Assembly (NCBI GenBank): GCA_016169945.1
Contig: JADLSH010000114.1
Coordinates: 1 to 64,000 of the forward strand
Origin: Trachythela sp. YZ-2020
Taxonomy: Eukaryota; Cnidaria; Anthozoa; Malacalcyonacea; Clavulariidae
Length of the DNA: 64,000 nucleotides
Direction: 5' to 3'
Shown here: positions 2,880-61,500 of the stretch, one piece after another
Position numbering within the stretch: position 1 is the first letter of the stretch
How the letters are laid out: each line of letters begins with the position of its first letter
Made by a program: the position numbers and the translations under genes
Notes under the pieces: generated by a model
Database searches by the model: none
What the model saw: the letters and a program-made list of their open reading frames with translations, nothing else
Told to the model about the DNA's origin: nothing

Positions 2880-4230
2880 AAAAGTCAGCAAAAGATATAG
2901 AGTTTATATACCTAGCAAATAAACACTATCATTGTAATTAGTCTAAAACTAAAGGTTATTAGCATAACATTTGTTTTCATGTCGGCATTTGGAGACAAGC
3001 TCCGACCTCTTATTCAATAAAAATCTTTTGTCTGCGTTCAAAATACAAATCTTTTCTGTGGTACATAAATTACAGAACTTGCCACAACCGTTCGAAGCTT
3101 TTGCATATTTAATATTGACCAGTTTATGGAATGCTTGATGTTCTTCTTTTTCAATTCCCAGATGTACTTGGACAATGCGGTCTTAGTCGAATGCCTCTCT
3201 TCATTGAACGACAAACAATGGTTGTTAAAGCGCGTTTTAAATTCATTCCCAGTCATGCCAATGTAGATTTTCTTCGCGTTGTTCTCTGCCGTTGTTACGG
3301 TGGCTATGTATACTAAATTGCTTTTTCTGCATTTGCCCGTTCAGCGGGCAGTTGGATTCCTTTCTGCAATTGCAGCTCTGCGTGGTTGTTGGTCCTTGTC
3401 GTTCTTGAGGATTTTTCTATTGTGTCGCTTAATCACGTTGGCCATGTGTTCCATACAGCTGTAGCTCACCTTTATGGAGTTCCGGTTAAAAATGTTGTGC
3501 AACGTGTGTCCGGTCGGGAAATGTTTGTAAATTAAGCTCAGAAAAACTTTGCCAACATTCGTTCTTACATTTTTAGAAAATGGTGGGTTGAACCAGATTA
3601 CTTTGCGTGATCTACTTGTTTTTTTTGCCGCACTGATCGTTTTGGTTGTTGTAGCTGATTGGTTCATTAAATCCACCTTTTGCGAGGGAGTCATTGTACA
3701 TTGGTGCTGCCTTGTTGAATTCGTCGACGTTGCAAGAAAGGTTGGAGATTCGTTTGCTGATAGCGGCAGAAACTTGTTTGAGAATGGGTGGTTTGACTCG
3801 AAACTTGTTTGACTCGGAAGTAGATAGACGGGTAAATTGGCAGGTTTTCAATAAGAGAGGAACGTGCCGTTGTTCAGGTTGAGCGTGACGTCTAGGAAGT
3901 CAGCGATTTTTATATTTGTCTTGATAGTGATTTTTAAACCAAATGACTCGAAACATTTTGATATTCGTTGGCGCAGTTTGTCAGCCGTTCTAGGTCCCAT
4001 GTTGCGGAATGCGGCGAGTCCGTCGTCTCGGTAAAGGCCGATGTTCTTGTTGTTAAATTCACGTTTCACCTTGTGTAGGATTGCGCGTCCTACAAGCTCG
4101 CATATCTCCGCGCCGTCGAAACTCCCCATGGTGCCGTCGAACATGTCGGTGCTGTTCTTCTTACACCATTGCTTGTTGTCACTAAAGAGTAATGACATTC
4201 TTGCATGCTTAATGATGTTTCTGTCATCTT
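2880..4230 (-). mobile_element. Penelope-like element family A, 5'-truncated copy 1 (RT palm to GIY-YIG)
   Basis: Minus strand from 4198: the RT palm with MSLLFSDNKQWCKK, DMFDGTMGSFDGAE and the catalytic motif YRDDGLAAF, then the thumb (ADKLRQRISKCFESFGL, IADFLDVTLNL). A linker follows ([32 protein letters not shown]) and then the GIY-YIG endonuclease near 3290-3040 (IYIGMTGNEFKTRFNNH, SKYIWELKK). This order RT-linker-GIY-YIG is diagnostic of endonuclease-positive Penelope-like elements. At least two frameshifts (near 3850 and 3340) make it a pseudogene. The N-terminal half of the RT is missing. It abuts an inverted second copy at 4284. Confidence 0.9.
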
Positions 4231-4660
4231 AATGATGTTTCATAATTCATGCATTAAGTTTCACCATCACGGAACAAGACAGGAACATCATTAAGCATGC
4301 AAGAATGTCATTACTCTTTAGTGACAACAAGCAATGGTGTAAGAAGAACAGCACCGACATGTTCGACGTCACCATGGGGAGTTTCGACGGCGCGGAGGTA
4401 TGCGAGCTTGTAGGACTCGCAATTCTAGACAAGTTGAAACGTGAATTTAACAACAAGAACATCGGCCTTTACCGAGACGACGGACTCGCCGCATTCCGCA
4501 ACATGAGACCTAGAACGGCTGACAAACTGCGCCAACGAATATCAAAATGTTTCGAGTCATTTGGTTTAAAAATCACTATCAAGACAAATATAAAAATCGC
4601 TGACTTCCTAGACGTCACGTTCAACCTGAACAACGGCACGTTCCTCTTTTATAGAAAACC
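3848..4660. repeat. Inverted duplication around 4230-4284
   Basis: The two family A copies form arms of about 380 bp (near 3856-4226 and 4289-4660) of high identity around a short unique centre. Both are truncated at the same RT residue, so either one copy was truncated and then duplicated in inverted form, or a twin insertion occurred. Confidence 0.8.
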
Positions 4661-4760
4661 TGACAATTTACCCGTCTATGTACATTCCGAGTCAAACAAG
4701 TTTCGAGTCAAACCACCCATTCTCAAACAAGTTCCTGCCGCTATCAGCAAACGAATCTCC
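4284..4760 (+). mobile_element. Penelope-like element family A, copy 2, head-to-head with copy 1
   Basis: Begins with the same MSLLFSDNKQWCKK at 4305 and repeats the palm motif YRDDGLAAF and the thumb, almost identical to copy 1 on the other strand. It stays open to about 4756 and then stops abruptly at ISKRISN. The sequence continues in a different Penelope family, so the copy is cut at both ends and joined to another element. Confidence 0.88.
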
Positions 4761-5947
4761 AACCATCGGCCTATATAGAGATGACGGTTTGGCTATTATA
4801 AAAAGTAAATCAGCACGTTTAGCAGACAAAATAAAATTTTCGAGCAGTTTGACCTAAAAATTAACACCTTAACAATGGAAAACATAGGCCCTATAGGAAG
4901 CCAAATGACGATCCACTATACATAAATATGCACTCTAATCACCCAACGAGCATCACAAGACAACTACCTGCATCAATTAACAAGCGCATCGCACTTCTTT
5001 CATCAGATGAGCAAACGTTTCAGGAATCTGCACCCATATATCAGAACGCACTTAGGCATAGCAGCTTTAATCATGAACTTAGCTACACTCAGCAAACACC
5101 GCAACAACAACGCAGGAATAGGCAACGCAATATCATTTGGTTCAACCCACCATTTAGCAAGAGTGTTAGCACAAACATAGGACGTAATTTCCTTAGTCTA
5201 ATTGACAAACATTTTCCACCGCACCACAAGCTCCATAAAATTTTTTATCAGAAATACAGTTAAAGTAAGTTACAGCTGCATGAACAATGTCAAGTCAGTA
5301 ATCACTAAACACAATGCTCCCATATCTAGGAATAACAAGCCACAGGATAGGGACACTACCAATTGCAGTTGTAGAGAAAACAACATTTTCCCGCTTCAAA
5401 AACAATGCATGACTAGGGACATAGTATACAAAGCAACAGTCACAGTAAGCAACACAAACACGATCAAAAATTACATTGGCATGACTGCAACCACATTCAA
5501 AGAGCGATTGGCCAACCACACTAAGCAATAAGGATTTCAGTAGTAATTGGCAAATTTTAAAACATTCTATTTCGTACACGGGAGGATCAAAACGATACAA
5601 TTTATGTTTAGAAGAAAAATTTTGTATTTTGAAAGAAAAAAACAAGAATTGTTTACTCAACAAAAGAGCTGAAATAATTTCACGGTGTCGTCATCGTAAT
5701 AAATTTCGCGTAAACAACGCAAACAATGCCATGCATGCACACATTGTCTCCCACATACACCCCCACGCTCCGGCAGGAACCATATAAGCGGTCATTTATT
5801 TCGATACTTGTAAACTGCCTGATGATTCTTTTACAGATGAAACAGCCTGTTGCAGAAGTTTTGAGGTAAGCGAAAATCTATAATTTGCTCTAACTATATG
5901 TTGTCGAGCACTCTTTGCGTTTCGTAGACCTAAACCTACACGTATAT
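4760..5947 (+). mobile_element. Penelope-like element family B, 5'-truncated, with ribozyme terminus
   Basis: Opens at a second catalytic motif IGLYRDDGLAIIKS near 4765, directly after the family A fragment. Then come a linker ([18 protein letters not shown]), [15 protein letters not shown], a Cys cluster (NCSCRENN, QCMTRDIVYKATV) and GIY-YIG (NYIGMTATTFKERLANH). The C-terminal tail near 5580-5690 has YTGGSKRYNLCLEEK and SRCRHRNKFR. Several frameshifts (near 4840, 5255, 5535) break it. The 3' end contains the hammerhead at 5815-5855 and the terminal sequence shared with 2587-2720. Confidence 0.9.
5815..5855 (+). ncRNA. Hammerhead ribozyme at Penelope B 3' terminus
   Basis: CUGAUGA at 5819-5825, stem II UCU/AGA, GAAAC at 5839-5843, stem III ACA/UGU with loop GCC, and stem I CUGC (5815-5818) with GCAG (5852-5855). 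Nearly identical to 2582-2624 but in the normal place, about 75 bases after the end of the Penelope coding tail. Shorter stem I than the copy at 2582. Confidence 0.82.
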
Positions 5948-20895: not shown

Positions 20896-21242
20896 CAGTG
20901 AGCTCTATATATATATATCTGGAGTGAGAACTTATGTCCAAAAAGTGAAGCCAAAGATGGCGGAAATTGACGTCCAGTGCCAATCCCTTTCTATTGTTTT
21001 CGACCGCGCGGTTTGCACAAGCCGGCAAGGAGTGTGCCGAAATTTCGTGTTTTTACTCCTAACATCATGATTTTATGAGCTAATGACTTGATTAGCGATG
21101 CGATCTGTTAGCTGGATAAAATGATATGAAAACTGTTTATGACCTTCATGAGTTTGGACGTCAATTGCCGCCATCTTGGCTTCGCTTGGCCTATTGGCCG
21201 AACATTAGAAGTTCTTACTCCAGATATATATGGAGCTCACTG
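20896..21242. mobile_element. hAT-type MITE with 8 bp target duplication
   Basis: Termini CAGTGAGCTC and GAGCTCACTG with arms of about 35 bases (atatatatatctggagt), flanked by a perfect 8 bp repeat GCTGTCAC (20888-20895 and 21243-21250). CAGTG ends and 8 bp duplications are hAT features. 347 bp; inner arms contain aagatggcgg and its reverse. Confidence 0.9.
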
Positions 21243-21325
21243 GCTGTCACTGATTTGTCAAACAAAGTGTAAGCTAATCGCTGATTGGCTGATATAAGCT
21301 CGCCGCTGAATGGCTACAAGCTAAC

Positions 21326-21649
21326 CACGGGTTTTAGGACAAATTCAATGTGACTACAAGTAGTATTATACATATAAATTTATATCCTTATATGCAAAAT
21401 AGAGTGTACCGTGCGGTACCTAATAAAGTACTCAAAATCGTCCGTGAATTCATTGTATATAAATAATATATTTACCTGTATTTGCATATTAACATTTTTG
21501 AAAATCCGCCATCTTTAATTTGGACTAGAACTCAAGCTTTCAAACTATAACGCGGAATACATGGATTAAAGTATGTCACGCGCGTGATTTCACGCGCGTG
21601 AAAATAGAAAAAATAAAGAAAACATAGGAAAAATAGAAGGGTAGGATCA
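21326..21649 (+). repeat. Left terminal inverted repeat of the giant element
   Basis: About 250 bases align closely with the reverse of the right end, e.g. ATGTGACTACAAGTAGTATT and TTAATTTGGACTAGAAC. Identity falls after position 21580, but a last shared block GGGTAGGATCA ends at 21649. Includes the palindrome gtaccgtgcggtac and a CACGCGCGTGA repeat. A left-only CACGCGCGTG duplication marks divergence. Confidence 0.9.
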
Positions 21650-21950
21650 AAGTGGGCGTTGTCACTCACTAACCCAATCAGCTACCTGGGTTCGGTACCA
21701 TGTGATTTGTTCAAATCGTTTCGAGCGGGAGGAAATTTATGACATCATAAAAGCTTCGTTTTGGAAAATATCGCTCTGCTGAAGCCTGGACTTGGTGAAT
21801 TTTAGCGGAAAAAATTAAAAATGAGAATTATTACAACCGTAATTGATACACGGGCTTTATTTACATAATTATACGAAATGTGCGAAAACATAGTGATTAT
21901 AGACCCGGGACAAGAGTACACAAACGAACAGTATAGAGCACTCGAGTTAT

Positions 21951-22791
21951 TTGCAAAAGGATTCAGCTTTTTCCTTACAGTCAGAGTCAGACTTTCTTCT
22001 ACTTCTAAATGAAATCCGACTGGGTGGAAGTTTGTCAGAATTTGCAATCCGTATGTTAAACTCTTTGACACGTCCAATAGAATGGACGGAAGGAGAGATA
22101 GTTGTAAAACTGTTTCCCAATCAAGAAGCAGTGCAAGAGGAAAACAACAAGTTGTTGAATATGCTACCAGGTGACACTCATGCTTTTAATGCAATCGATG
22201 GGGGGGGAAAGAAAAAATATGATTGATAGGAGATGTCCAGCGCCAAAAAGTCTATTGTTGAAAGTTGGTGTACCTGTTATGCTTATCAAAAACTCTCCTC
22301 ATTTGGGTCTTGTAAACGGGTCTCTTGGAACAGTTGTTGGATTTGTACACAACTATCCACAAGTACGGTTTGAAAATGGCAAAACAATCATAGTGCGGGA
22401 GTTCACTTGGTCAGTGAATGATGGTTAAGGTTGCTATTCCACTAGGCGACAGTTACCTCTTTTTCTAGCTTGGGCAATGACCATTCATAAGTGTCAAGGA
22501 CAAACACTCTCTAAAGCTGAAATTAGCATATCTAACTTATTTGTACCCGGTCAAGCTTATGTTGCATTGTCTCGTGTTAAGACACTTGGAGATGTCCGTG
22601 TCGTACCAGGATTTGACATAAATATACCATCAGTAAGCAAGTGCGTCCAGCAGTTTTACAAGGAAAATGTGTCACCAGTTAGTGATGTCCAATGTCTAAA
22701 TACACTCATTCCCATTCGTATGGTTGCAGCTCATCCGCTTGATGATATGTGGAAATTAAGGGACAATGAACAATCAGTGGTAAACGATTAG
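21951..22791 (+). pseudogene. PIF1-family helicase, C-terminal part
   Basis: Segments in order: DFLLLLNEIRLGGSLSEF, WTEGEIVVKLFPNQEAV, the PIF1 block LLLKVGVPVMLIKN, LVNGSLGTVVGF, then [20 protein letters not shown] (helicase motif V region) and [13 protein letters not shown] (motif VI). PIF1 enzymes unwind DNA 5' to 3'. The N-terminal half with the Walker A and B motifs is not found between the TIR and 21951. An acceptor (ttccttacag) at 21979 suggests an upstream intron. Breaks: a frameshift in the G-run 22200-22209 and an in-frame TAA at 22426-22428. It stands alone, without Rep/HUH motifs, so a Helitron origin is not supported here. Confidence 0.9.
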
Positions 22792-22831
22792 AGACACATC
22801 CTTCCACTTCCAGTAGCAGTTAATGTTGACA

Positions 22832-25800
22832 ATAAATTAAAGATATGGTTAATGATGAAATGAATTCCAAAGAGACTAAAAGGTTAATGTCAGATATTGG
22901 TTTTGATAAAAAACAGCTCCTCAAATGCTTCTTAAATTTACCTGCCACAGTTGGATGGAGCTCGAAAAATTGATAGCAAGACCAGAATCTAATGAAGTGG
23001 TAGTTGTGTCAAAATAAAATTGGGTAGGTTATGCTGGTGGCCTTCATAAATTGAAGATATCCAAATATTTATCAAATAGGTGGATTGAAGTTCTAAGCTA
23101 TTCTCAAGTCTGTGAAGGACAGGGACAAATTCTGAATTATGCACAGAGATCTGTAATGGCTCAACTCGTTGACAAACTTCATGTTGCACTGATAGGTAAG
23201 TTACATCATCAATAAAACCAGTGGGCATTTTATTCCAAAAACCTGGAACCCATCAAAGCTAGCAACAAACAAAATTTCTACCCATAATAGGGTCAATAAT
23301 GATTACATTACAATCCGATTCTAGAGGTTGAAATATTTTGCACACTGGTCATTTCTGTTTTGTGACTGTGTTGCCTTTACAGATCGAGAAATCTAGAAAA
23401 ACTGTACCTGACCTTAGGGCTGTGCTCCGGCAGAGCTCCGGCCCTCCGGCGCACAGCTCTAGCTGACCTTGTTACCTCTTTTCATTTTGCAGATTCTATT
23501 TATCAAGATTTGAATACAGATCTACATGAAGTTACTAACCACACAGAAGCAGAACAGTCCAATGTTCATATTTACAGTAAGGAGTGTCAAAGCAAAATCA
23601 GGTAGTAATATACAGTCTACATGATTGTGTAAGTTATAAAACCTTGTCAAGTGAATGGTTGAAAAAGCCTTAATCATCACATTTCAGAGTAGTTAAACCC
23701 AAAATCACAGCTAAGTCACTCAATAATCGCAGCTAAATCAATAATTACAAAAATATATAAGTAATATATATTTGTAAACTTGTATCATTATTAGATACAT
23801 AGCAGGATGGACAGTCAGAAAGGAGATATCTGCATGCAACAGTTATATTAACAAAAACCAAAATTCCAAGACAAAAAAGGTTATTAACAGATTACACAAA
23901 GAATAACAGATAAAATCTTTTCTGAAGGTAAATTGTTCAAAGTACTCATTATTCACCACCACAATTAACTCCCCCAATTAACAGAGGACATTTCTGCCAT
24001 CCTGAGTTTGAAATTCACCTTCTGGTAATGGCAAAACATACTAAGACATCTGAAGAGAGGAGGGCTTACTTGCAATTTATTTTGTGGGGGAGGTGTGCAT
24101 GTTTCAAATTAAATGAACAATAATGTATGCCACAATACTATTACATCTCACCCTATAATTCACATTGAATTTGGGGATATTTCCACTGGGGGTAGATTTT
24201 AGCCCGCTCTCCCCCTGGGTGGGTGCTGATTTCATATGTTATTATTATTGTTATTATTGAAAATTAATTGTACACGGTAGCCTTTCACTTGCGTGATTTT
24301 CAAAGGGCCGTGTGTTTTAAAAGAAGAATTACAACATTTAACTAACAAGACAAAGTTTCATAACTATTACAAGGTTTCATAATAATTATTAAGTAGACTA
24401 CGAAAAGAGGAAATAGCTGACTGGGATTCGTCTACCACTCGTAGAAGTTCAAAGGGTAGACTATTCCACAAGACAGCCCCATGGTAGGAGAAGCTTCTTT
24501 TCAAAAAATCCGTTTTTGCTTAGGAAGGCTCAGTTTTAAATTGTTACTCCGTAATGGATAATTAGAATTGCAAAATTTATGAAACAACATTGCTAGGTAA
24601 TTAGGTGCCATGTTTTTTAGAATTTTGAACATCTTTGTTAGTTCCTGTTTGTCCAGGATATTTTTCCATGTGGATGGACTGACATAATTTTTAATAGATC
24701 AAATTGGCTAAGTGTAGATATATGTCAAATTCTTAAACACCATGAAAAGCTGTTCACAATAACCATAGAAGCTCACCTCCTTTGGAAGAAAGGCAAATGC
24801 AGATAAAGTGCTAGTTTCTTGATATTATAAGCAGGATATCTACAACTGAACTCAGAGAAATGTAATGGAAACCTCAGACCTGTCACGTAGATGACAGAAC
24901 ACTGTAACTAACTAATTTGAACATGACAATTGCATGAAAGGGACCATGGAAAAAGTGGTAGTCATTATATGGACAGGGATCTGAAATATTAAACAGAAAT
25001 GTCCCTTTAATATGTCTGTTTAAATGCTTATCGTGTACAACTGCTGAGGACAGATTGGGGTGTCAACTTAATTATCATGGTACCAATAATTTTACAATTA
25101 TGATAATAAGATACCAAATGTCTTATTAATTCTATAAACTATAATTATAAAAAATATTCTAACACTGTTATATACATGTAATTATTAGAACTTTACTACG
25201 TCTGAGTCCACTCTGGAAACAGAGTCTAAGTACCAGTCCAGCCTGCAGTTTACTCAATCACACAACAGAGGAGGTTTAACAAATGTTTCGGATGACTTTT
25301 ACGAATATATGTTATCTGTGGAGTCCTCCTGTAAACAGCATTTTACTGTCAATTTGTTCTACAGACATAAATGGAACTCATGTAAAGTAGGACGTGAAGC
25401 AGTGAGAAAGGATGCTGCTGTTATAGCAGCTTTCAACAAGTTAATGTCTGATATGAGTTGCAACAGTGACATTGGGTCGGATGTGAAAGAGATGGTTCAA
25501 CTAAGAATAATGAAGAGATACCTTAACAGGAGGTGCAAAGAATTTATAAAGGTGCTCAAACGGGAGATGAAATATGAAAAGGTAAAAGAACACAGAAAGA
25601 AAGTGCAAGAAAAGAAACAAAAAGCTACTAATGGAAGTAAGGCTATCGTACGTCAACTTATTGAAGATACATCAACCAACAAAGCTGTGTCTTTCCACAC
25701 TCTCAAGGCCATTGCGGCCAAAGGTAAAGGCAGCTTTGCACAAATATCGAGGAAGGATGCTCATTTCATCTACCATCTATTTGGAATTAAATTCAAGAAA

Positions 25801-26244
25801 TCCAATACTAAGGATAAACTGGACTTACTATTGATTAATATAATCAATTATGCCCACGAGATGACCTACCCCAAAAGGTGCACACGACAGGAACGAAATG
25901 TGTTAGGAAAGAACAAGAAATGCACAATATGTGATGCAATTAGAGACGTTTTGGGAACATTAACTAACTTTACAAATGTTACAAACCCTGCACAAACGTC
26001 TGAAAGTTCATCTGTTGCAGAAACTCCATTACCAATTCAGAGTGACATTCCTGAACCACCACCGAAAGTTCGTAGAAAACAATTCAGGTCAGAAGATGTT
26101 CAGAACACAATTCTTCAAGGAGACAATGTGAATGGGATAACAACAGAACTTATCAAACAAAGAGCATCAGAATTTGGAGTTGATGTATCACAAATTTGTT
26201 CATGGCATAGGCGATTTAAACATAGGCAACAGTCAAAGACATGA
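22832..26244 (+). pseudogene. Four-exon gene of unknown transposon-associated family
   Basis: Exons 22832-23195, 23493-23601, 23795-23927 and 25189-26244, all with GT-AG ends and matching phases (1, 2, 0). Protein landmarks: FLNLPATVGW, LNYAQRSVMAQLVDKLH, RYIAGWTVRKEIS, RGGLTNVSDDFYEYML, a Lys-rich coiled stretch near 25560-25630, and at the end a helix-rich block ITTELIKQRASEFGVDVSQI followed by WHRRFK that looks like a homeodomain-type DNA-binding helix set. I have seen the RYIAG and RGGLT-VSD blocks only in cnidarian multicopy proteins and cannot name the family. Broken by a frameshift near 22965-23025 and an in-frame TAA at 23904-23906. It follows the helicase by about 40 bases on the same strand. 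Confidence 0.7.
24240..24690 (-). mobile_element. LINE (CR1/L2-like) 3' end inserted in an intron
   Basis: Minus strand reads KMFKILKNMAPNYLAMLFHK, then NNLKLSLPKQKRIF, and after a frameshift the W-N-x-L-P-F-E-L-L region and SAISSFRSLLNNYYETL. The 3' end is an (AAT)n tail at 24240-24260. It lies inside intron 3 of the 22.8-26.2 kb gene, opposite in direction. Confidence 0.8.
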
Positions 26245-26266
26245 ATGTTACTAACAATTCTTTAAT

Positions 26267-26378
26267 CAGGGTTCTCGTTAGAATATGAAGTAGCAGGTGA
26301 AATAGAAAAAGTAGATGGCAAACATTTGGAAAGTAGATGGCTAAATTAGCCAATCACTGGCTTCTATTGAGAACCCTG
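26267..26378. mobile_element. Short hAT-like MITE
   Basis: Ends CAGGGTTCTC and GAGAACCCTG; a reversed pair of actatagwagatggc-like blocks inside. Flanks ctttaat and cttaatg are a possible imperfect target duplication. Lies 22 bases after the stop of the 22.8-26.2 kb gene. Confidence 0.6.
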
Positions 26379-26658
26379 CTTAATGTTATACTGGTAACGA
26401 TATAAATATAGACGATTTAAACAGGACTGGTATATATATATATTATTTAAATATGCAGTATTTACACAATAAATATACCATCTGTAGCTAGTATATGTTC
26501 AGTTGTTTGACGTTTTGTGAAGCTATGACAAAAAAGGTAATATTGTTTATTTGTTCGAATAATGATTGGACATCTTTCATAGTTACAATGTATTATTGAA
26601 GTATTATTTTTATATGTGCATCTAAAGTACCAATTGATCATTCATATTTTTTTGCCAG

Positions 26659-26717
26659 AAATCCCATGTGAAATTGTAAGGTGGCTTAGTCGAACAATCC
26701 CATTGATGCCTGCACCT
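26659..26717 (+). CDS. Candidate exon, gene unknown
   Basis: A 59 nt open stretch between a strong acceptor (tttttttgccag) and a strong donor (GTAAGTATG). Translation in the open frame is IPCEIVRWLSRTIPLMPAP. It could be an alternative 3' exon of the preceding gene or a remnant of another one cut by the nested insertion at 27254. The reading frame alone is too short to judge. Confidence 0.35.
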
Positions 26718-27253
26718 GTAAGTATGCATATCAACAGATTAATATATACTGATGGAAACCACATGATCAAATTTTATAATAACACTGAATTATGATTAGT
26801 GTCACTCATCTGTACATCAGAGGAGGTTGGACAGCAGGCCGCAAAGCATCATGGGTAATGAGCGTATGTTTCCACGTGCGGCCTCATTTATGCGTTGACT
26901 GCCGTGAAGTCAACATCTCAGGCCATAGCAAATTCTGCGAAAATGGACGCTATTGACAGAGACTCAATGCCATCATTATGGATGTGTTTAGTGTTTGTGT
27001 ATCGATGTATAACAAGGCTCTTTGAGTCCGTTTAATGGATTTATTTGTGCAGAAATCTCAAAGGCTGCATGTGATCAACTGGTCTTGTAGTCAATATAAA
27101 TGTTGCGTTGAAAATTCTATATGTATTTGTGGACACTTTGTTCAGTGTTGCACGTATTGCATTTTATATACTTAAGTAAATGATTTCATAAGCTGACCCA
27201 TTGGCACTGCCTGGATCGTCTGTATTTGTAATGTACATAGTGCAACTAGTGAG
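26718..27253. other. No gene recognised
   Basis: Inside the giant element, between the candidate exon and the nested element. Open frames are short; nothing recognised. Confidence 0.35.
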
Positions 27254-27817
27254 GAGTGTTAATTTTAGGGTGTCAATTTAACACCAAAAAGTGGTGTAAA
27301 AAATTAGGTAAAAAATGACACCTTTTTTGGGTGCTATTTTAACACCGCGTTTGATGGTGTTGATTTAACACTAGTTACGGTGCTAAAACAACACCTTTCC
27401 TAGTGTGATATTAGCACTGGTTTTTAGAGTTAATTTAACACTTGTTGTGTAGTGCTAAAATAACACTTTGTTTTGGTGTTAAAATAACACGCCTTTTCAG
27501 TGCTAAGGTCACACCAGTTTTTAAGTTTAACTGTTAACCCTGGTGAAAACTTAATTTTGTTATTAGTTTACACTGCACTAAAGTGATTTAGTGCACCCAA
27601 ATGGCCTCATAATATTACACACAAACAAGAAAATAGTTTCATGATTATTATTAAATTAATTAAGTTAAAAGTTTTTGGGTTCATTTTCCTTAGCTGTTCA
27701 TGATTAAGTTTAACAATTGTTAATATTCTTCCTCTTGAAATATCCTTTCACAAAACTTTTAACTAACCATTATGCATGCATTAAATGAAGTAGTTTAATG
27801 TAAATGTTGTATATATA

Positions 27818-30178
27818 CTATTTCCATTGGAGTCCCAGTTCATTGACAAATTTCTGGACAGAAATTCTTTCCTTAGCATCTGCGCGCTTGTCCATCAAAA
27901 CCGCTTCCAGGAAGGCGTAGATATTCGAAACTCCTGGAGTGGCGATAAGCATGGTCACCACCATAGCCACTGGAATGTTTTTGCCTGAGAAGTTTAAACA
28001 GATTTGTCCATCAGCAGCGATGTAAAAAGGATCCAAGATTGCCAGGTCTCCAGAAGCTATAATCCGTGGATAGGTGGATTTCTCTACTTCTTCGGCAATG
28101 GAATCATCATCCTGAAAATATTCATTTTGATTTTAACTTATAAGTTCACTATCGACTAACCTTAGGCCCTTAACCTCACCCCTTAACACTGAGCCTAAGT
28201 CACATTGTTGCATCTTTAAATAATTATGTCATAAATATTTTTACCAGGAAGCTTTGCTCTCATTAATAAAGACATAAGGCAATCGGATCTAGAATCAGGC
28301 CTCCAGGCCAAAAAAGTGTTTACTGTATGACGTAATTATCGAAAGGGTCAAGTAATGATTTAACAAGAGGCATAGAAATATAGAGTATATAGTTAACTCA
28401 TCTATGCCCAACACTTCCCCTCTGCATGAAGTGCATATGTCAAATTTTCTATTAAAATATACTTACTGTGCAAATCATGAAAAATATATTTTTGGAAATG
28501 GCCTTCTCTTTCAAACAGGATTGGAGAACCAATGCCGTAACAGTGCTCTCAATTTCTGGGAAAAAATAAAGGATAACTATAATTAGTAAAACATAAGTCG
28601 AGAAACAAAAGTCGAGAGTCACTTTTTATATCATTAAAATAAAAATACATAAACTTGATCACTAGACAATACGTCAGTCCAATCAAGTTAGAGCAAAGCC
28701 AATCAGCCTGAGATAGTGTAACTGAAACGACAATGTCAAGCAAGGGCCAGAGTTGTTTGAATCACTAACCTTTTATTCAATTCACAGCGATATCTGTATA
28801 TTAAATTTCTTTTGTTCGACTGCCATTTGAAAATAAATTGGTATACACCGTGTATCGCAGGAGCTTGTGACTTGTGATGATGACATAAGAATTCATTTTA
28901 AATCTTAATTAATTCTTATGTCATCGTCATGAGTACAAAATTTTGTATTTGCTATAACCTGTACCAAGGTGGGGTTCTTTTGGGTGAAATGCCGCTTAGA
29001 GTGTTAAACCCATTTTAATATTATTATTATACGACTAGACAGTACAGATGAAAGATTCTCACAATAGGATTTGTATATATATGACCCAGAAGTTTCCAAT
29101 CGTTTCTGCAGAAACTAAGGGCATTTCAGCCCCTGGGCTGAATTTGGCCCCGGGGTTGAAAAATCTCCATGTAATCAGCCCCTTACAGTAGTAGACAGCT
29201 ATCTTTGTTCTAGCAGGATACCAGACATGGCAAAATTGCTTGCTTGCCATGTATAAAACCCAACGTGAAAAAATAATGTTATTTACATTTAGAAGCTGAG
29301 CCAGTCTGGCTTTCCGAGTTTCCCCTATTCACCGGGTCAACTCACCTGAGTCACCTCATGCAATCAGCCCCTCAATACAATCCCATGGCCAAGCCAACTT
29401 AGTACATCACTACATGTATACCCAGGCTTATTGAGGTCAAGTCTGTTGGAGTGTTGGCTCTCTCTATAAGCCTGATATTTACAGTACTAAAACAGAACTA
29501 TTCAAGAGGACTATACTCTGCTAAATTATATAATAACATTTCATAATACTTTACCATGAAAACATTTTCAAAATATTTATATTTTTCTGACAGAGACACA
29601 TGGGTGTGGGGCCTGGCATCCATATTTTAAAATAATATTTTGTCTAAGTCTTTATACTCAATCCTATTATAAATTGAAATCTCAAATTATTATTTAATTT
29701 TAATTACCTACTTTTTGAGGTTATTTTTGGAGAAATCTAAATCCATGTCGTTATGTCGTTTGTATTTTAATATATCAGTGATTCAAACATAAATATTACC
29801 ATGAATTACCAGCATGCTTTGTGGCCTTTGCTAGGACGCAAATATGGAAGAATTTTTTGACACTAAATTTATAGTTTTTATACGATCTACGACATTGTTT
29901 TGATCTCGCACTTTATTGAGTTAAAATAAAATGAGTTCGTGAATCATGTTGTGTTATTGTATAAAATATGGCCTTCGACTAGCAAATATTCAATGTTTTT
30001 CCGACTGATGAACGCAAATATTATGATTCAAGCGCTGGCACGGGGACGATCACGATATCCTAAATATATTTCAACAATATAAATGGCATAAATACAGTAC
30101 CTCTTCATCCTCAAGAATAGAGATGGTAATCTCCTTCAAACCCGCATTTATTAGAATTTCGCGTAAAGAAGAATCCAT
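27818..30178 (-). CDS. Two-exon small protein inside the nested element
   Basis: Exon 1 is 30101-30178 (ATG to donor GTACTG, 26 codons), exon 2 is 27818-28111 (acceptor ttttcag to TAG, 97 codons). Phases agree (0/0), giving 123 aa. Exon 1 reads MDSSLREILINAGLKEITIS, like the first helices of a SAM domain cut short. Exon 2 has STYPRIIASGDL, FYIAADGQICLNF, IPVAMVVTMLIATP and ends ELGLQWK; this pattern reminds me of the C-terminal part of multicopy SAMD3-like proteins in fish and cnidarians. The 1,989 bp intron carries no other convincing exon. No breaks. Role unknown; a captured or regulatory protein of the element is possible. Confidence 0.6.
28871..28935. repeat. Small palindrome
   Basis: tgatgatgacataagaatt and its reverse aattcttatgtcatcgtca flank 14 bases. 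A minimal foldback element within the intron of the two-exon gene. Confidence 0.75.
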
Positions 30179-31548
30179 CTTCTGAAACGAAAGGAAATCA
30201 CAATTAAATATTAGATGATGTTTGATATAAAAATACTTTGAGAATATCATACATAAATCGCGTTTTATCAACTCGTGTGGAACATACCAATTTAACAACA
30301 AAGTCGATTCCTTTTTGCTCTTCGTCAGAATGCCAATGTGCAGTTTAACATACGAACTAACAGCCGCGACAACACCAGAAAGTATAAAAAAACAAACAAC
30401 TCGAAGCGGAATATAACCAAACGATTAAGTCGCCAGCGATGAAATGAATAATTTCAATCTTGCCGCACGAAATTTGATGTCCTTTCGAATGACATTTTGA
30501 AAAAATCAAGGATCGAAATCATCGAATTAAGTTTTGGAAGAAAGTCTGAACAATGAACAATGGATTACAACCGCGAATAATTACGTCATTCAATTAATTT
30601 ATATTTAAGCTCCATTAAGCTCTATAACTATAAATATTTTGCATTTAAATTCGAGTATCAAAATGACTGGGAACTGCGGGAACTGAATGTAAACGTTTTC
30701 GAAAGGAATAGAAATATATATGGAAAACAAGGAAATGAAAATGGCTCTGTGGCTATTATAGACTTGCTACAAGTCGACTCGCATTATTAAATGTGCGGTA
30801 AAGCTCAATCTTCTTAAAAGTGCTGGACGGAAATTTTTAATACTCGCTCTCATGTTATGCCTAATATGGTATTCCATGCCATATAGAGAGTTACCGGAGT
30901 TGTTGGAGCGCGTGGGGCCTCGGAACCCGGTATTGTGCGTCACGTCTCGTATAGCACATCCACTGAGAATATTTTTGTGTTTCTGACAAAAATATGGCCT
31001 AATGGCTTGCTTTTCGTTGCAGCATTTGCCTCGAATTTGTGTCAGAATCTATTCAAACATTAGTAAAGTATATTGGCAGGATTCGTCGAAATGAATCGAA
31101 TTTCCATGTCGTTTGTGGTATCAAGAGGGCTGCGCGAAAATATTCAAACATTCATATTTTCACCCCAAGAAACGGAGTTAATTTAGCAATACCAATATAG
31201 GTGTTACTTTAACACCCATGTTCTACCTCCAGAAACGGTGCTAATTTAGCACTACGAATAACAAATGTTTAACACCCGTAGAGGTGTTATTTTAAGACCC
31301 AAAAATTAGCACCAGAAACCGGTGTTATTGTAACACTTGCACTCCTCTTGTAGGTGCTAATTTAACACTTCTAAAGTGGTGTTAAACAAATCGAGTGTTA
31401 AATTGACCCTTTGGAAATATTTGTATTTATTTGGTGTTAAATTAGCACTGAATTAGGTGCTAAAATGACACTTTCTATTTAGCACCACCCTTAGGTGTCA
31501 ATCTAACACCAGTCGAGGTGCTATTTTAACACTCTAAAATTAACAGTG

Positions 31549-32927
31549 TATAGTACAGACAGTTAACTAAATATTTATTGGCCAGATTGATCTTTGCAAC
31601 AGAAATTACTGGTGAAATGTAGACAAAACAAACTTTACAGTAATACACAGTTCCATTTTTATTGAAAATACATAGCACATGCATAAAATATAATATCTCT
31701 GCTCATTCTCTACATATATAAAGAAATATTAAAGAAAGCAAATATCCACCAAGAAGGCAAATTAACAATACAATGATAGAATTCAAAACAAAATACAAAT
31801 CTGTTAAGAAACAACAAATTTTCTTCTAAAACTCAGCACTTATTTTAAACAGTAAAGTCCACTTCTTCAGAAAAATACGAGCAATCACTGCGTCAATTGT
31901 GGAAATTCGAGATGTTCAACTTCAAAGATTGTTGACAGAAATGGCATCGGATTAATACAATATGACGACGTACAGCCTACATAAAAGATCAAAATAACGT
32001 TTACCATAGAAAATACTGCTCACATAGGTAGATCAATAGTTATTGAAATAGCGTGGATGCATTCCAGGAAAAAAATTGAATAACAATGACAAAATATTCG
32101 ATATTTGCGAGTCGAGTGGGCCGTCAGACAACAAAATTGCAGACAGAGCCAGACACTAGCCCAGATATAAAATCTCTAAACAACACGCAAATAACTCCTA
32201 AATCTCCTAAAATTCATTCAAAAGTACTTTAACGCTTACTCTAAAGAATAACGCTCTTCATATTAAAGAAGTTTCAAGATTCATTGGGAAAAACAAGCTT
32301 TGGTGGCGCAATGTCGTCAGGCGCAATAAGGTGCCATTTTGGCAAAAGTTGAAATGAGTATAGTCACTTCAATACCGAATATCTCGAAAACTGCCGGGGG
32401 ACCTCTGGGACCCCTCCAGCAGATTTTTAGTTTATACATTTATCTTGACTTTTTTGCAAAAAATAGAAAAATCGAACCATGGGAATTCTAGATATTTTAT
32501 TTTGAAAGTTGTAAACAGACGCGGCCTTGAGTCATCACGTAACGAAGACGCGACAAACTTTGATGCTCAAAATAAGTTTAAAAATGACACTTACCTCAAA
32601 GGTTTTCGCAGATATCGCAAGTCCTTATATAATATGAAAGCCACGCTTCCTTTTTTATAGATTTTTAAAAATATTAATATGTATTTTTCAAGTGTTTCTG
32701 CGTGCAATGCAAATTACACGACCAAGAATTTTGACAAACACGATGGAAAAATAGCGCGATTTCATTGGTCGAGAAATTCACGTGACAGCTGTCCACCCTC
32801 CTCTGTCTGTACACAGTAGTTTACTAATCTCTTACAAATCTCTTACATCTCAAAAAGTCAGTATTAATAACTAAATGGTGTACAATATACAAATTCTAGT
32901 AGTGAAAAGCATGCACATGTTGCTTAC
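31549..32927. other. Possible 3' end region of the transposase gene, no clear exon
   Basis: Between the nested element and the last recognised transposase exon. The P-type transposase should have a further C-terminal exon left of 32928 (exon donor GTAAGC at 32922-32927), but I could not find it. A plus-strand open frame 32445-32660 shows no family. Confidence 0.35.
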
Positions 32928-35900
32928 CATACTGGAGTTCAGTTGGATTGTTGTTTTGACCATTTTGTGCCCTTTGTCTGCCAAAAAATTGCTCAAGGTT
33001 ATCCTGGTTAGATCTGTCACTTCTGATTTGACAACCACGGAAGAAGCCAAACAATGTTTCGCAGTATTTTTGAAAGCCCATCACCATGAAACGAAGATCA
33101 AATATAAGTTTCGTTGATATAAACATCTTCTCTTTTTCCTTTGCCTGAAGTTCTTTGCAATGTTCCTTAATCCATTTCTCCCTCTCGTTGAACCAAGATA
33201 CACATGCCTGATTTTCTACAAACCGTGAATCATCTAACGCTTTACAATGAATACAAAAACGAAGTACAGTCACTATAATTATGTAAAATACTGATTCGTA
33301 CAACATACTCATAAGTTACGACAAGCATGGAAACTTCAGTGATTGTTTACTTCAGTAGTCTGGTACAGTACATACCTGTATGGAGCTTTGCTCTTAAAAA
33401 TTTTCAGTAATGTCGCACGTCAGGTTGAAATTGATCCTGTTATTCAGGGTCACGTGCATGTTTAATACCTGAATAATATGCATCATTCATTTACCAAGAA
33501 CGTCATCTGCAAGGTAGTTTCTCATTCGACTGGCAGAATTCAGATAAAAAATGATCATCGGTGAGTCTTCGGAATGTGCTGATCGAGTTTATAGTTTTAT
33601 CGTGGTTATAAGCATCAACCCATTGCTGCCAGAGAATTTCCTTTCCATCGTATCTGAAATGACAAGGTGTCTTTCCACTTGCGTTACTCTTCTCTAAATT
33701 GTTTCTGATATTCTTGAAGTTGTGCTGGATAATAGGATAAAATAATAAGGTAAGATGTTCGCTGTTTTACAAGTAAATATTCCTTTTGTATTTGTGGTTC
33801 TCGTATACAGGTATTCCTTTGTTGGTACAGGTATAAACAATTCAAAACAAAGGAAATGTACATTCAAAACAAAGGAAATGTACATGAAAACCATCAATAC
33901 CACTTTTGCTATGGCACACAGGTACTCACAGAATAATCCATCATAAGTGAATGTTGTTCAACACAGTATGGATTTGTTGTAGTAAACATCGAAGCAACAG
34001 CATCCTCGTCACTTTCAAAATGTAAAGCTATAAATGCTCTATTTGCTTGTGCACCAACACAAATTGCCATGTTTACAAAGAATTTAATTTCCTGCAAAGC
34101 CTTAACTACATTCCAGTATATGTGAAATAGTGTAACTGGATCAACTTGTGCAGTTGGGTAGTACACAACAGGAAATTCAAAGCCTTCACAACCAACAAAC
34201 GTGAAATGTAAAATGTGAGGCGCCATATCAGCCTTGGATTCCTTACTTATCAATATAGAATTATAACATACATTTGAGTCACACACTAAATTATCTATTT
34301 AAGTAGAATATGCTTTAGTAATTTATTTTGCAGACACTTCCAAAATATAAAGATGACCAGCATTAAAGGATATTGCTCATATTTTCAAGGCTACGGGATA
34401 ATCCATACTACGTACAATAAATATTAGCATGGGAATATTAAATATATTTACATTGTTGAATAGGCAAGGTTTCATAATTGGTTAACTTGACAATTATGTT
34501 TCACTCACAACAAAGTGCCCACACTAAAACTAGAATTTATTATTACATCCACTTACACTTGTGTATCACTGATTGTATTTTTTCACTTAACCCTCCAATA
34601 TTGGCAAGACCACTCAATTCAAATGTGTCACCCACCTTGCGAAGCTGCTGGTCTCCCTATAAGTTACAACATAATGGTAGCATATGTAATTGAATGACTG
34701 ATTCCCATCCTAAAACATAATTATATATTGTAACTAATTATCTGCTTCATTATGAGTGCTATAAAGGAACCTTCGGCTTGCTAGGTTTGTCACCAGTGCC
34801 AATATTATATAACAAAAAGGGTACAATCATCAAACACTTCCAACAAGGCTATTTAGCAGAAAGAGCTTCCAGTAACATTGGATCATTGTACAACAGAAGA
34901 CAAAGTAACATAGCTTTTTGTAGCTTTTCAAATATTAAACCATTAATAAGGTATATTTAATATACCAGGTTTTTGGTTGACTTTGTTTTTTGTACTCCTT
35001 AAGTATCTGCCTATAAAAGTTCAATTCCTGTATATACAATAAGATATTAATGTTATATAAAATATATTACCTCAAGCCTAAATCATACTCACTGTTGTAT
35101 TTCTGTATACAGGTGTTAATGTCAAAATTATATATCCAGTATCTCTAAACTCCTCATATCCCTGCTTACTTCGTTGCCATAACCGAAGGCATAGTTCAAG
35201 GAACCTAAATGCAGGTAAATTACTTGTTTTACTATTGAATTATCATACAGTCTACTGTTTTCTCTTCAATTTGGTTAACCAACCTTGGGTGCCAAATTGC
35301 CAGACTGGAGCATATCTCTCTGCATTGACCAAAAACATGCATCATCATCCAAAGTATTATCTGAATCACAGGTATGAGGTAATTCTTGTATTTTTGTCAT
35401 TTCATCATCAAGTTGCCTGAACATAATATTCAAATCATCACTGTCACTTTTTGTTAACTTCAGCATCTTTTTTTCTTCTTCAGATTTCCTTTTGGCATAT
35501 CTTTCACGTCTCTCTGCATTAACTCTTCTTCTTTGTTGATCTAGGTACCTTTGTTTTTGATCAGCATCACTCAAGAACCTCCAATTCGATGTGCTTGAAC
35601 TTTTGGTGCATGCACTGTCTTTTCCAATTTCTACAATGCCATTGTTACATTTATACAATTAATTGCATAAAACTTTGTTCAATTTTGCGCATGATTCGCA
35701 TCTCACATGTTTGTAATCTTTGGTAATAAGATAATGACAACTAACAGATCGTCTTATTTCAAATGTTTGCAAATTACTGTTGGTAAGTGACTCTAAGTTT
35801 CCTGTTACGTTGCCTTTCTTGTCGACACATGGCTTTAAAATGAAAAGGAAGCCTTGGTTATCACAATCATCCAGAGCATAACTTAAGTTGCTGACCAATG

Positions 35901-36279
35901 GTGTTGAGTAGTGTCATTAGGTCATAGGTATTTTCGAGTTTGGCAGGAGGACCTCCACGAATGCGTGTGAAAATTTCAGACATCACGTTATTCCCATGAA
36001 CTTTTACTTTTCAAGTTAGGTCTTCATCAATAGTTACCCTTCTGGCCACTTGTATCCCATTAATAAGTTCCTTATAAAAATACATAAATCTTAGACTTTC
36101 AGCTGTAGTTTCAACCAAGAACCAATTGGCAAAAGCCATGACAGAATTGGATACATTATTGAAATAACTTTCAAGGATTCAAATATTTAGTATATTTGTT
36201 GTATTTTCTTGATAGAATTTGGGAACCAAGACCAAGTTCTCTTTGGCCACCTTGTTCAGTTCCAAATTTGAATAATACG
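32928..36279 (-). pseudogene. P-element/THAP9-type transposase, multi-exon, inactive
   Basis: Exons on the minus strand: 36279-35275 (N-terminal block, broken), 35204-35111, 34656-34557, 34285-33930, 33724-33495, 33239-32928. The last four have GT-AG ends and matching phases (1, 0, 1). Landmarks: RCESCAKLNK and WRFLSDADQKQRYLDQQRRR in the first block, FRFLELCLRLWQRSKQGYEE, TFELSGLANIGG, ILHFTFVGCEGFEFPVVYYP, then MDYSHNFKNIRNNLEKS, MRNYLADDVLG, and a C-terminal block with FDLRFMVMGF and NLEQFFGRQR. These are blocks of the RNase H-like core and GTP-binding insert of P/THAP9 transposases. Damage: TGA at 36179-36181 and 36011-36013, TAA at 35659-35661, frameshifts near 35895 and 33550, and Val in place of the conserved Asp of the I-C-D-G-A-x-x-N-R block (34056-34058). 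Confidence 0.85.
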
Positions 36280-37110
36280 CTACAAATATTATGTGGAGTA
36301 ATCATTCACTTATTATATATTGCAATATATAGTTTCGGACACGAATTCTAAGATCATGCACTCACATTTACTAAGAAGTAAAAACCGAATTTGATCTATG
36401 TGGTTCGAAATCAGGTTTACCTTTATACAGACTATCAGCTAGTTATCCTAGTTAACTGTAGATACGACGGACAATTTTGAACATGGCTCTTAAAACCAGC
36501 ACCTTGGTAAACCGAGCAAAACTCGCTCGTCTGTACGGCAGCAAAGCAGGGTACTGTATTCAAAGGTTTAACGTACTTGCTTTTGATCCAAGGTCAGTCT
36601 TTACTCGTTTACTTTGTAGTGCTGGAAAAAGATCATGCAGCAGCCTCGAGAAAAGAAGCTGTGATGTTGGTTTCCTTTTGTATGCAATGCACGTTTGGGT
36701 GCAGGCACCATAAGCATTCGGGAGCGACAAGCCTTCACTTTTTTCGTTTAAAATAACACATTTAGGCTACGAGTTATTTCAGCATCGCTGAAAATATGAA
36801 AAAATATCTTTAATCCTTTATGTTCACCCTCGACTTTATACAAATTATTACAAAGAAATTTATTAAAGTATATGGTAAACCGCTGTTAAACTTACATGTA
36901 AAGTTCTCCTTCCCATAAAAAACACTGTTGTCTTTTTGCCGATCCATGTTCGCGTGTCTTAAAATTTAAATATTCCCGTTTTTATTATGTAATAGAATGC
37001 TAGATGGACAGGTTTGTTCCATATAAGGAAGTCAGGGACAGGTTTATGCCATATATGGAAGTGTCGTTTCCTCTCGCTTCGAACGATGAAATATTTTAAC
37101 ATAGTGGGGA
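36280..37110. other. Upstream region of the transposase, no clear gene
   Basis: Should contain the transposase promoter and first exon, to the inner edge of the right TIR. A plus-strand open frame from 36483 ends at a donor-like site near 36590 but has no family match. Repeated words (ggacaggtttgttccatata and ggacaggtttatgccatata) lie at 37008-37060. Confidence 0.35.
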
Positions 37111-37414
37111 TGATCCTACCCTCTTATTTCAAGTGGAAATCACTCGCGTGACATAATTTGATCACTGAATAATTAATCCATGTATTCCGCGTGATAGTTT
37201 GAAAGCTTGGGTTCTAGTCCAAATTAAAGATGGCGAATTTTCAAAAATGTTAATATGCAAATGCAGGTAAATATATTATTTATATACAATGAATTCACGG
37301 AAGATTTTGAGTACTTTAGGTACCGTACGGTACACTTTATTTTGCATATCAGGATTATCAATTTATATGTATAATACTACTTGTAGTCACATTGAATTTG
37401 TCCTAAAGCCCGTG
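37111..37414 (-). repeat. Right terminal inverted repeat of the giant element
   Basis: Reverse complement of the left end, with palindrome gtaccgtacggtac matching gtaccgtgcggtac. Starts at CACGGGCTTTAGGAC (minus strand, 37414) and ends in the GGGTAGGATCA block at 37111-37120. The next bases outside are the target repeat AGCTAAC. Confidence 0.9.
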
Positions 37415-37459
37415 AGCTAACACACTCTTACTCGTACGATGGCAATATATCTGCATTCG

Positions 37460-58599: not shown

Positions 58600-58863
58600 C
58601 GGACCACCGGAACACCGGAACACCACCGGAACACCGGAACACCACCGGAACACCACCGGAACACCGGAACACCACCGGAACACCGGAACACCACCGGAAC
58701 ACCGGAACACCACCGGAACACCACCGGAACACCGGAACACCGGAACACCACTGTAGTAAAATACGGACCACCGGAACACCGGAATACCACCGGAACACCG
58801 GAATACCACCGGAACACCGGAATACCACCGGAACACCGGAATACCACCGGAACACCGGAATAA
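58600..58863. repeat. CCGGAACAC(CA) minisatellite
   Basis: Units of 9 (ccggaacac) and 12 bases (ccggaacaccac) in two blocks (58600-58750, 58766-58863) separated by tgtagtaaaatacggacca; the second block has ccggaatac variants in a regular 21 base period. A short inverted block lies at 59476-59545. Long open frames in it are artefacts of the repeat. Confidence 0.95.
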
Positions 58864-58919
58864 TAACACCGAAAGTCTGAACACAACATTTGCATGTGTT
58901 TTCTTTTTGTTTTTGCAAA

Positions 58920-59242
58920 ATGGCTGAGGGCACAAGGTACGTGTGAAATGTGAATCCTTTTGAAATCATGCATTATTTATGACATCCTTATTACAATAGC
59001 TTATATAGCTTTTGATTTTAACAGGAGAAACCCGTTTGTTGTTATTTCGTCAGATGAAAACGAAAGGTACGGTAATTATCGTTGCTCGCACAACATAATT
59101 ATACATGATACATGAAATAGTTTCATATTTGAATAATATTTCATATTGCATGTCATTTCATATTTGAATATTAGATACGAACTTTTTTACAGTTCTAATG
59201 GAGAAAGTGACGAAGATATTGATATTGAAAATATTACGATGT
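58920..59242 (+). CDS. 5' end of a gene with tiny exons
   Basis: Exons 58920-58936 (MAEGT plus), 59025-59066 (42 nt) and 59193-59242, each with GT-AG ends; phases 2, 2 agree throughout. Joined start: M-A-E-G-T-R, RNPFVVISSDENE, SSNGESDEDIDIENI. A short acidic, Ser-rich N-terminus, as in some nuclear proteins. Exon 2 also occurs inverted at about 59315-59357 in the other palindrome arm. The following exon was not found. Could be host or transposon derived. Confidence 0.5.
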
Positions 59243-60186
59243 GTATGTACATTAAAATATGAAACTATTTCATGTATCATGTATAATTATGTTGTGCGAG
59301 CAACGATAATTACCGTACCTTTCGTTTTCATCTGACGAAATAACAACAAACGGGTTTCTCCTGTTAAAATCAAAAGCTATATAAGCTATTGTAATAAGGA
59401 TGTCATAAATAATGCATGATTTCAAAATTAAAAAGGATTCACATTTCACACGTTGCAAATGTTGTGTTCAGACTTCCGGTGTTATTATTCCGGTGTTCCG
59501 GAGGTATTCTGGTGTTCCGGTGGTGTTCCGGTGTTCCGGTGGTCCGTACTTTACTACATGCCGATGGCAAATGCTAGCTTTTGTCAGGAAGCCTGCGGTG
59601 CAGCCGCTTCATGTTTCAGATCGTTTGAAATAGGAAGCGTTTACAAGCCAGATTACTTGTTGGAGATGGCAGGGCTGCGCTTCTGTACTTTAACTAATCA
59701 ACATTTAATAATTCTAGCAGTTTCTTGTCATGACTCGTGAACTATTTTTTCTGTGCTTTTATAAACTTGTATAGTTGTATAAGAGTGCTGTGCTTTTATA
59801 AGCGTTGTTTACTGTGTGTATTACATAATATAATATCGTATTTTTCATAAACGTCGAGATGGGCATGCGCAGTAGTGCGACAATATTGCTCCCGCATCCC
59901 AACCGTAAAATATTTTCTGTAAATATTTTCTGTCCGCCGTCCACGTTTTCCACAAAACCCCTGACTGGGAATGCGTGCAGCCTCGTACCCAGGCGCAAAA
60001 GAGAGAAAAAAAAGCAATACTCCAGTGTTTTATATAGATCAGTGGTTATGCTGAGCGAGCGCGCGGGGGTGTTTGGGGAGGACGCGACGGGAATTAGTAG
60101 CGCCTGGCAGAAAATGTCCGATATCTGATGAATGTATGTCGATAAGTGAAGAGTCGAATATATCCGCGTAAATCAACCCGTTTTTT

Positions 60187-61098: not shown

Positions 61099-61261
61099 GT
61101 AAATTAATAAATTATTATCTATATTTCTACTTTCATATCATTATGCTTCATAATTTTTATTCTTCACTTGCAACCAATCCCCAAAGACAATTGAATTTGG
61201 GACCAACATTGCTGCCATTCTATAGAAGATTATGAGATTCTTTTGTTGAAACGGGGACCAA

Positions 61262-61500
61262 CATGGTAACATGGAAAACACGGAGTCGGAGTTCCGGAGC
61301 CGGAGTGGCGGAGTCGGAGTGCCGGAGTCCAAATTCCGGAGTCTGACGTCATAATATTGGAAAACACGGAGTCTGACGTCATAATATTGGAAAACACGGA
61401 GTCTGACAAAAATATGGAAAAGACGGAGTATAAAAATTTGGAAAACACGGAGTCTGCCAAAAAATAGTGGAAACACGGATTCTGAGGTAATGTCAACGTG
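61262..61500 (+). repeat. Coding-like repeat with ENTESDVII units, arm 1
   Basis: Three to four 30 base units translate as ENTESDVIIL, preceded by a CGGAGT hexamer run. An inverted copy lies at 62060-62305. In each arm the frame is open only for about 60 residues. Confidence 0.75.

Follow-up and report, generated by a model that had tools for sequence, protein, structure and literature searches.

The DNA analysed here is a 64,000-nucleotide stretch of the anthozoan Trachythela sp. YZ-2020 (C147:1-64000, hereafter the window), part of a genome of 578,087,698 bases in 396 contigs, to which the C numbers below refer. It contains a transposable element of 16,089 bp (positions 21326-37414) in which a P-type transposase on the minus strand is convergent with a PIF1 helicase and a further open reading frame (ORF2) on the plus strand. 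The inverted arms of the element share 94.3% identity over 245 columns, corresponding to a length of ~244 bp. The element is flanked by ACAAGCTAAC on the left and AGCTAACACA on the right; these flanks, with AGCTAAC repeated perfectly on both sides, indicate a target duplication of 7 bp, and the chance of a perfect 7-mer match at a fixed position is ~1e-4. An initial annotation had described an element with these AGCTAAC flanks, and our analysis confirms its boundaries. Pfam matches to TNP-like_RNaseH_C (minus strand) and Pif1_2B_dom (plus strand) bear out the P-type transposase and PIF1 helicase that it had placed on opposite strands, and the terminal inverted repeats (TIRs) that it had estimated at ~300 bp are present, although nearer 244 bp in length. 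Very likely, the window feature is a decayed, large cut-and-paste transposon of the P superfamily, from a family in which a multi-exon DDE transposase gene convergent with a PIF1-ORF2 gene, both between long inverted ends, is the norm.

Genes of the window element

The Pfam match to TNP-like_RNaseH_C lies above the cut-off (30.5 vs 24 bits) at 32899-33315 on the minus strand, and a match to TNP-like_RNaseH_N lies just under it (22.3 vs 24.6 bits) at 33912-34298 on the same strand. Both domains exceed the Pfam cut-off in P0130, a homologue from EukProt (P numbers denote homologous proteins), and P0130 aligns to the Drosophila P transposase 6p5a with an E value of 0.0064. The catalytic residues D, D, and E are present in P0130 and in the transposase of a related element on C203 (FDEM, CDSA, and DNLEQFF). 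The first D and the last E align with 6p5a, the stretch around the first D scoring −1.1 bits; the residue that we take to be the second catalytic D is assigned by position. At this presumed second position, the window has Val (ICVGAQANR), whereas C203 and P0130 have Asp, and no exon with the first D was found in the window by TBLASTN or by comparison with C203, leaving the window copy without the full set of catalytic residues. No THAP match was found in P0132, P0135, or the window pieces within 35278-36010; a first exon could lie upstream, where the conserved stretch at 36570-36658 is possibly a promoter or first exon. Pfam lists PF21788, presumably a GTP-binding insertion domain, for the distant homologues P0137 and P0138 and not for P0130 or P0136. 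The P-type transposase P0136 carries, near its N-terminus, a DNA-binding domain of the RFX type (27.2 bits, cut-off 27).

The helicase, like the transposase, is broken in the window. Its Pif1_2B_dom match lies within 22159-22425 on the plus strand. The initial annotation had recognized a helicase C-terminus only; we also find an N-terminus, with a start codon at 21878, 309 bp past the left repeat. This N-terminal piece occupies 21878-21979, and residues 7-34 of P0011 match 21896-21979 at 71% identity by TBLASTN. An internal deletion has removed the region of the ATP-binding motif, and the C-terminal half begins at 21978. A frameshift interrupts this half between ~22200 and 22215, and further on there is an in-frame TAA at 22426; a C-terminal extension then runs to 23203 in shifted frames.

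ORF2, described initially as a second split gene, seems not to be a separate gene: elsewhere in the genome, helicase and an ORF2 relative are fused in a single open frame at three loci, C385:4365700-4368489 (965 codons), C82:6464075-6461286 (965 codons), and C117:701541-704330 (944 codons). At these loci, ORF2 thus forms the C-terminal portion of the helicase protein. Each of the three also has a convergent transposase core exon, and the C385 and C82 loci look like copies of one element. For P0003 (an ORF2 homologue) and for the helicase parts P0011 and P0123, the contig of origin is 5206 bases long; they probably share one contig from another source, which supports a helicase-ORF2 unit. By comparison with these relatives, the window ORF2 (25189-26241) appears to continue the helicase gene unit downstream, and the conserved stretch at 23793-23929 is possibly an exon of it. 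Structure prediction gives a homeodomain-like three-helix fold for ORF2 residues 293-351.

Table 1. Features of the window element (window coordinates).
Feature	Position	Strand	Basis
Left target site duplication copy, AGCTAAC	21319..21325		Flank reading
Left TIR, starts CACGGGTTTTAGGACAAATTC	21326..21569	+	Arm alignment; homologous ends on C101, C50, C314
PIF1-type helicase gene, broken	21878..23203	+	TBLASTN of P0010, P0011, P0013, P0023, P0028, P0123; reading frames; Pfam Pif1_2B_dom
Conserved stretch between helicase and ORF2	23793..23929	+	79% DNA identity to C203:78915-78779
ORF2 exon, 351 codons open	25189..26241	+	9 homologues, 50-78% identical
Transposase 3' part, last catalytic Glu (NQDNLEQFFGRQRAQNG)	32926..33549	-	Pfam TNP-like_RNaseH_C; TBLASTN P0130
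Transposase exon	33509..33724	-	TBLASTN P0130, 50%; C203:76231-76454
Transposase exon, presumed second catalytic position	33930..34259	-	TBLASTN P0130; C203 comparison
Transposase exon (LRLWQRSKQGYEEFRDTGYI)	35123..35206	-	TBLASTN P0130, 64%; C203:74868-74945
Transposase N-terminal exon, one frame break near 35868	35299..36289	-	TBLASTN P0131-P0135
Conserved stretch upstream of transposase N exon	36570..36658	-	72% DNA identity to C203:73309-73221
Right TIR	37173..37414	-	Arm alignment
Right target site duplication copy, AGCTAAC	37415..37421		Flank reading

The gap between the two convergent genes is 6.7 kb in the window copy vs 0.4 kb in C203 (77206-77633), a difference suggesting that nested repeats have swollen the window copy. 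At 24370-24698 (minus strand) lies a nested reverse transcriptase tail that we presume to be LINE-like (long interspersed nuclear element), and 27257-31545 may be a further nested element, with 29-bp inverted ends that are 83% alike and no duplication seen. Outside the element, a 321-bp inverted-repeat sequence resembling a miniature inverted-repeat transposable element lies just to the left (20911-21231). Reverse transcriptase pieces that we take to be Penelope-like occur on both strands at 3041-5528, together with an ORF at 3041-3340 (minus strand) that is presumably GIY-YIG-like, and short G+C-rich units form tandem arrays at 58600-62400, some of them in facing orientation around 61.3 and 62.2 kb.

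Related copies, linkage, and selection

Nine further loci, belonging to three end families, have both genes between facing ends (ORF2 and transposase in the case of C101). The C101 element (C101:826080-856679, 30.6 kb) has ends of the window family and a perfect ATTTATT duplication; inside it lie ORF2 and the N part of the transposase, ordered as in the window. In the second family, the C203 element (C203:72476-92896, 20.4 kb) has ends that are 96.6% alike over 292 columns (~290 bp) and encloses a transposase, an ORF2 with 344 codons open, and a helicase. Pieces of helicase, ORF2, and transposase are likewise enclosed in C123:2860165-2872661 (12.5 kb, duplication CATTACC). Two short copies of this family, on C110 (2,017 bp, GTTTAAG) and C370 (1,690 bp, TTCAGAT), retain both ends and helicase pieces, and C126 has one such end with helicase and ORF2, with no second end in the stretch examined.

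The third family is represented by six loci, on C24, C271, C225, C176, C391, and C297, where facing ends enclose the helicase as well as the N part and the core of the transposase. Sizes of 10.8, 11.1, 11.2, 11.4, and 14.4 kb occur in this family. A 135-base piece of C24 matches seven helicase-side ends, C24 included, at 99-100%, and 37 of its bases match at the other end of five; the true family end, placed with a 441-base query, is CAAGGGAACACGG. At each end, 98-100 of 100 bases are identical among C271, C391, C225, and C176. Helicase frames without a stop extend over 474 codons in C24 and 634 codons in C176, and the transposase N exon is free of stops over 331-335 codons in C24, C176, and C225, with stops in C391 and C297. 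Perfect 7-bp duplications flank C24 (GTTTAAC), C271 (GCTTATG), C225 (CCTTGTC), and C297 (CACCGTT), as well as short copies on C82 (GTTGGCT) and C385 (GCCGCAT). Across the three families, both ends were read in 14 copies, and 11 of these are flanked by a perfect 7-bp duplication, each with a chance of ~1e-4. Comparison shows that the copies have a common layout with inverted ends and 7-bp duplications and have spread as a unit; near-identical copies occur in the third family, and some copies of this helicase-bearing lineage look recently spread. The check proposed in the initial annotation, whether copies with other flanks enclose both helicase and transposase, comes out positive at C203, C123, and the six C24-family loci. 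The outcome that it named as refuting, cargo outside the TIRs or never enclosed by them, did not arise in the copies described, except that, in the window's own family, C101 lacks a detected helicase and isolated ends on C50 and C314 enclose nothing of the cargo in the stretches examined.

These isolated ends number six (four on C50 and two on C314), and five of the six share one outer flank. No facing end was found in the stretches of 50 and 30 kb, and nothing of the element is enclosed there; perhaps, the end sequence has been amplified inside another repeat on these contigs.

Linkage of the two genes extends beyond the elements with defined ends. Candidates were scored for the best 93 of 684 helicase and the best 150 of 306 transposase core matches; the match lists comprise 105 helicase matches at 84 loci, 141 core matches at 139 loci, and 30 N-part matches at 28 loci. 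A convergent transposase lies within 15 kb at 44 of the 84 listed helicase loci (at three by the N part alone), as counted by proximity, with element ends examined in a minority. One other helicase locus has a same-strand transposase (C73, beside a convergent pair), none has a divergent one, and 39 have no transposase within 15 kb. Approximately 0.6 helicase-core pairs would be expected if the genes were unlinked. Viewed from the transposase, 41 of the 139 listed core loci have a convergent helicase; when only the N part is considered, a helicase occurs within 20 kb of 17 of the 28 loci, in convergent orientation every time. ORF2 sits behind a helicase on the same strand within 20 kb at 22 of 26 loci.

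Differences between the window and C203 copies were counted by codon position. For positions 1, 2, and 3, the helicase piece has 41, 35, and 86 differences (nonsynonymous rate [dN] 0.25, synonymous rate [dS] 1.57, dN/dS ~0.16), the transposase N exon 51, 43, and 87 (dN 0.29, dS 2.11, dN/dS ~0.14), and the transposase core 22, 11, and 48 (dN 0.16, dS 1.61, dN/dS ~0.10); ORF2 has 102, 83, and 187, with dS not computable. In this one comparison, of a single pair of copies that are both now broken, the helicase and the transposase show purifying selection of similar strength after the split of the two end families.

Explanations for the helicase

Several observations weigh against a P-superfamily lineage with a working helicase. 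The window copy itself is dead, with the helicase motor region missing, Val in place of the second Asp, and no first-Asp exon found. The C203 helicase has a stop in each piece, and in the C101 element no helicase was detected at E 1e-5. Among C24-family loci, ORF2 is listed in only two of six (C24 and C391), the transposase genes are assigned by match position rather than by reading of the sequence, and C391 has its right end cut off. C24 is only 96-97% identical to C271, C391, C225, and C176 at the transposase-side end (one end read), and the five other full copies match its right end, over 441 bases, at only 79-90%. A perfect 7-bp duplication is lacking at C203 (GTTTATA/GTTCATT), C176 (six shared bases), and the short copy C376, and flanks were read for three of ~9 short paired C24-family copies. 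The linkage counts are tempered by the limit on the candidates scored and the reliance on proximity, both noted above, and also by a helicase query drawn from the studied lineage and the non-independence of copies of the same family. Lastly, at 98 of the 139 listed core loci, the surrounding 15 kb contain no listed helicase, which suggests that P-type elements spread in this genome in its absence. Many P-type transposases in this genome have long open frames, and helicase-free P-type elements seem abundant.

These points also bear on whether the helicase is a passenger, that is, a host gene, or a fragment of another transposon, trapped in one P element. Such an origin would agree with the truncated, out-of-frame helicase of the window, with the other repeats nested there (such as the LINE-like tail at 24370-24698), and with the helicase-free C101, but it is very improbable given the convergent layout at 44 of the 84 listed helicase loci and the presence of the helicase between facing ends in two end families, with remnants behind the left end in the window. 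In addition, constraint on the helicase has been about as strict as that on the transposase N exon, which argues against a passenger. Still more improbable is that the unit is a Helitron or a Maverick/Polinton-like element with the P transposase as the intruder. Helicases are usual in Helitrons (PMC12730594, available text); however, the helicase homologue P0010 is closer to chains that bear the name ATP-dependent DNA helicase PIF1 (E value 1.3e-82) than to Helraiser, a Helitron protein (7.3e-19), the elements have inverted ends with 7-bp duplications, and domains of polymerases, integrases, or Rep proteins are absent from the subset of 10 window ORFs and 10 homologues scanned with Pfam. On the sequence evidence, the helicase is almost certainly a functional component of a transposon lineage.

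In textbooks, P elements exemplify both cut-and-paste transposition and the repair of the gap left by excision. Because of the ends, the duplications, and the transposase type, we infer that the transposase would cut the element out and paste it with a 7-bp stagger. P-type excision leaves a gap for which the sister chromatid can serve as the repair template, and PIF1 helicases promote the long synthesis needed for this. In a gap-repair assay described in the available text of PMC8951532, P-element excision leaves a 14-kb gap whose efficient repair needs PIF1 in the absence of POL32, and reference 49 of that paper, judging from its title, deals with PIF1 and processive synthesis during gap repair. 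The helicase of this lineage may act in gap repair after excision, a possibility to which we give somewhat less than an even chance; repair synthesis driven by the helicase would copy the large element back into the donor site, and an element of at least 11 kb would gain by carrying its own PIF1. The homeodomain-like end of ORF2 may tether the helicase to element DNA. The fuller proposal, that PIF1-ORF2 tethered in this way drives copying of the element of at least 11 kb into the donor site in a manner like break-induced replication, is slightly more tentative. The internal deletions in the C110 and C370 copies and the helicase deletion in the window fit aborted gap repair.

Two other roles deserve weight. 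It is rather unlikely that helicase-ORF2 is an accessory factor or regulator that opens the ends or the target, guided by the homeodomain-like end and without part in repair; the 98 of 139 listed core loci without a listed helicase suggest that end opening does not need one. It is unlikely that the helicase serves to replicate the element in an excised or nicked state, as a replicative transposition step rather than in donor-gap repair; the several near-identical copies and the support that PIF1 helicases give to recombination-coupled synthesis (reference titles in PMC8951532) would agree with this role, but the inverted ends and the 7-bp duplications are in keeping with simple cut-and-paste. 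If donor-site copying by PIF1-ORF2 is correct, it would turn a conservative move into a net gain of copies and lift the size limit on P-type elements. With a PIF1 under lasting selection and near-identical copies in a single genome, donor gap refilling of large cut-and-paste elements becomes directly testable.

Comparison with known transposons

Membership in the P superfamily is indicated by a P-type split RNase H transposase (window Pfam matches, P0130 Pfam matches, and P0130 vs 6p5a), by the D, D, and E residues of C203 and P0130, a set that is incomplete in the window copy, and by a duplication of 7 bp (11 of 14 copies), within the 7 or 8 bp of the superfamily. The lineage stands apart from P elements and THAP9 proper, with their 8-bp duplications and ends of 13-31 bp, in its 7-bp duplication and ends of ~244 and 290 bp. 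It resembles the P element and zebrafish Pdre2/THAP9 in its P-type transposase, inverted ends, and internally deleted copies; the P element and Pdre2 have 8-bp duplications and ends of 13 or 31 bp, compared with 7 bp and ~244-300 bp here, and the available portions of the two sources mention no helicase gene for them (PMC10983969, PMC7776569). No THAP domain has so far been found in this lineage. Galileo, a Drosophila member of the P superfamily, is similar in its typical 7-bp duplications and long inverted ends (PMC4168063, PMC3688188); it may differ in its THAP transposase (PMC3688188), and the word helicase is absent from the available text of PMC4168063.

Helitrons are not known to have inverted ends or target duplications and encode a Rep-helicase protein, and Mavericks/Polintons have polymerase B, an integrase, and a 6-bp duplication. 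The present elements have ends and 7-bp duplications, with no Rep domain in the proteins scanned and no Maverick/Polinton domain in the 10 window ORFs scanned. A PIF1-like helicase is shared with Helitrons, which differ in their HUH nuclease (PMC12730594, available text) and from whose Helraiser protein the helicase here is more distant than from PIF1 chains.

Among the papers listed by text searches, none names a P element with a PIF1 helicase in its title or abstract opening; Repbase was outside this scope and may catalogue the lineage. The initial annotation had proposed a distinct class of large cut-and-paste element, which stands as a lineage of the P superfamily and not as a new superfamily; very likely, the helicase-bearing elements form a diverse lineage within it, with a PIF1-ORF2 protein. 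AcademH, of the Academ superfamily, is likewise a DNA transposon carrying its own helicase, but it has duplications of 9-10 bp (PMC10045372, available text) vs 7 bp here, placing these elements outside AcademH. KolobokH similarly combines a DDE transposon with a helicase, which lies on the complementary strand in a rhodophyte Kolobok, but that helicase is of the RecQ type (PMC9587614, available text), in contrast to PIF1 here. Beside AcademH and KolobokH, the lineage adds a helicase-bearing branch within the P superfamily.
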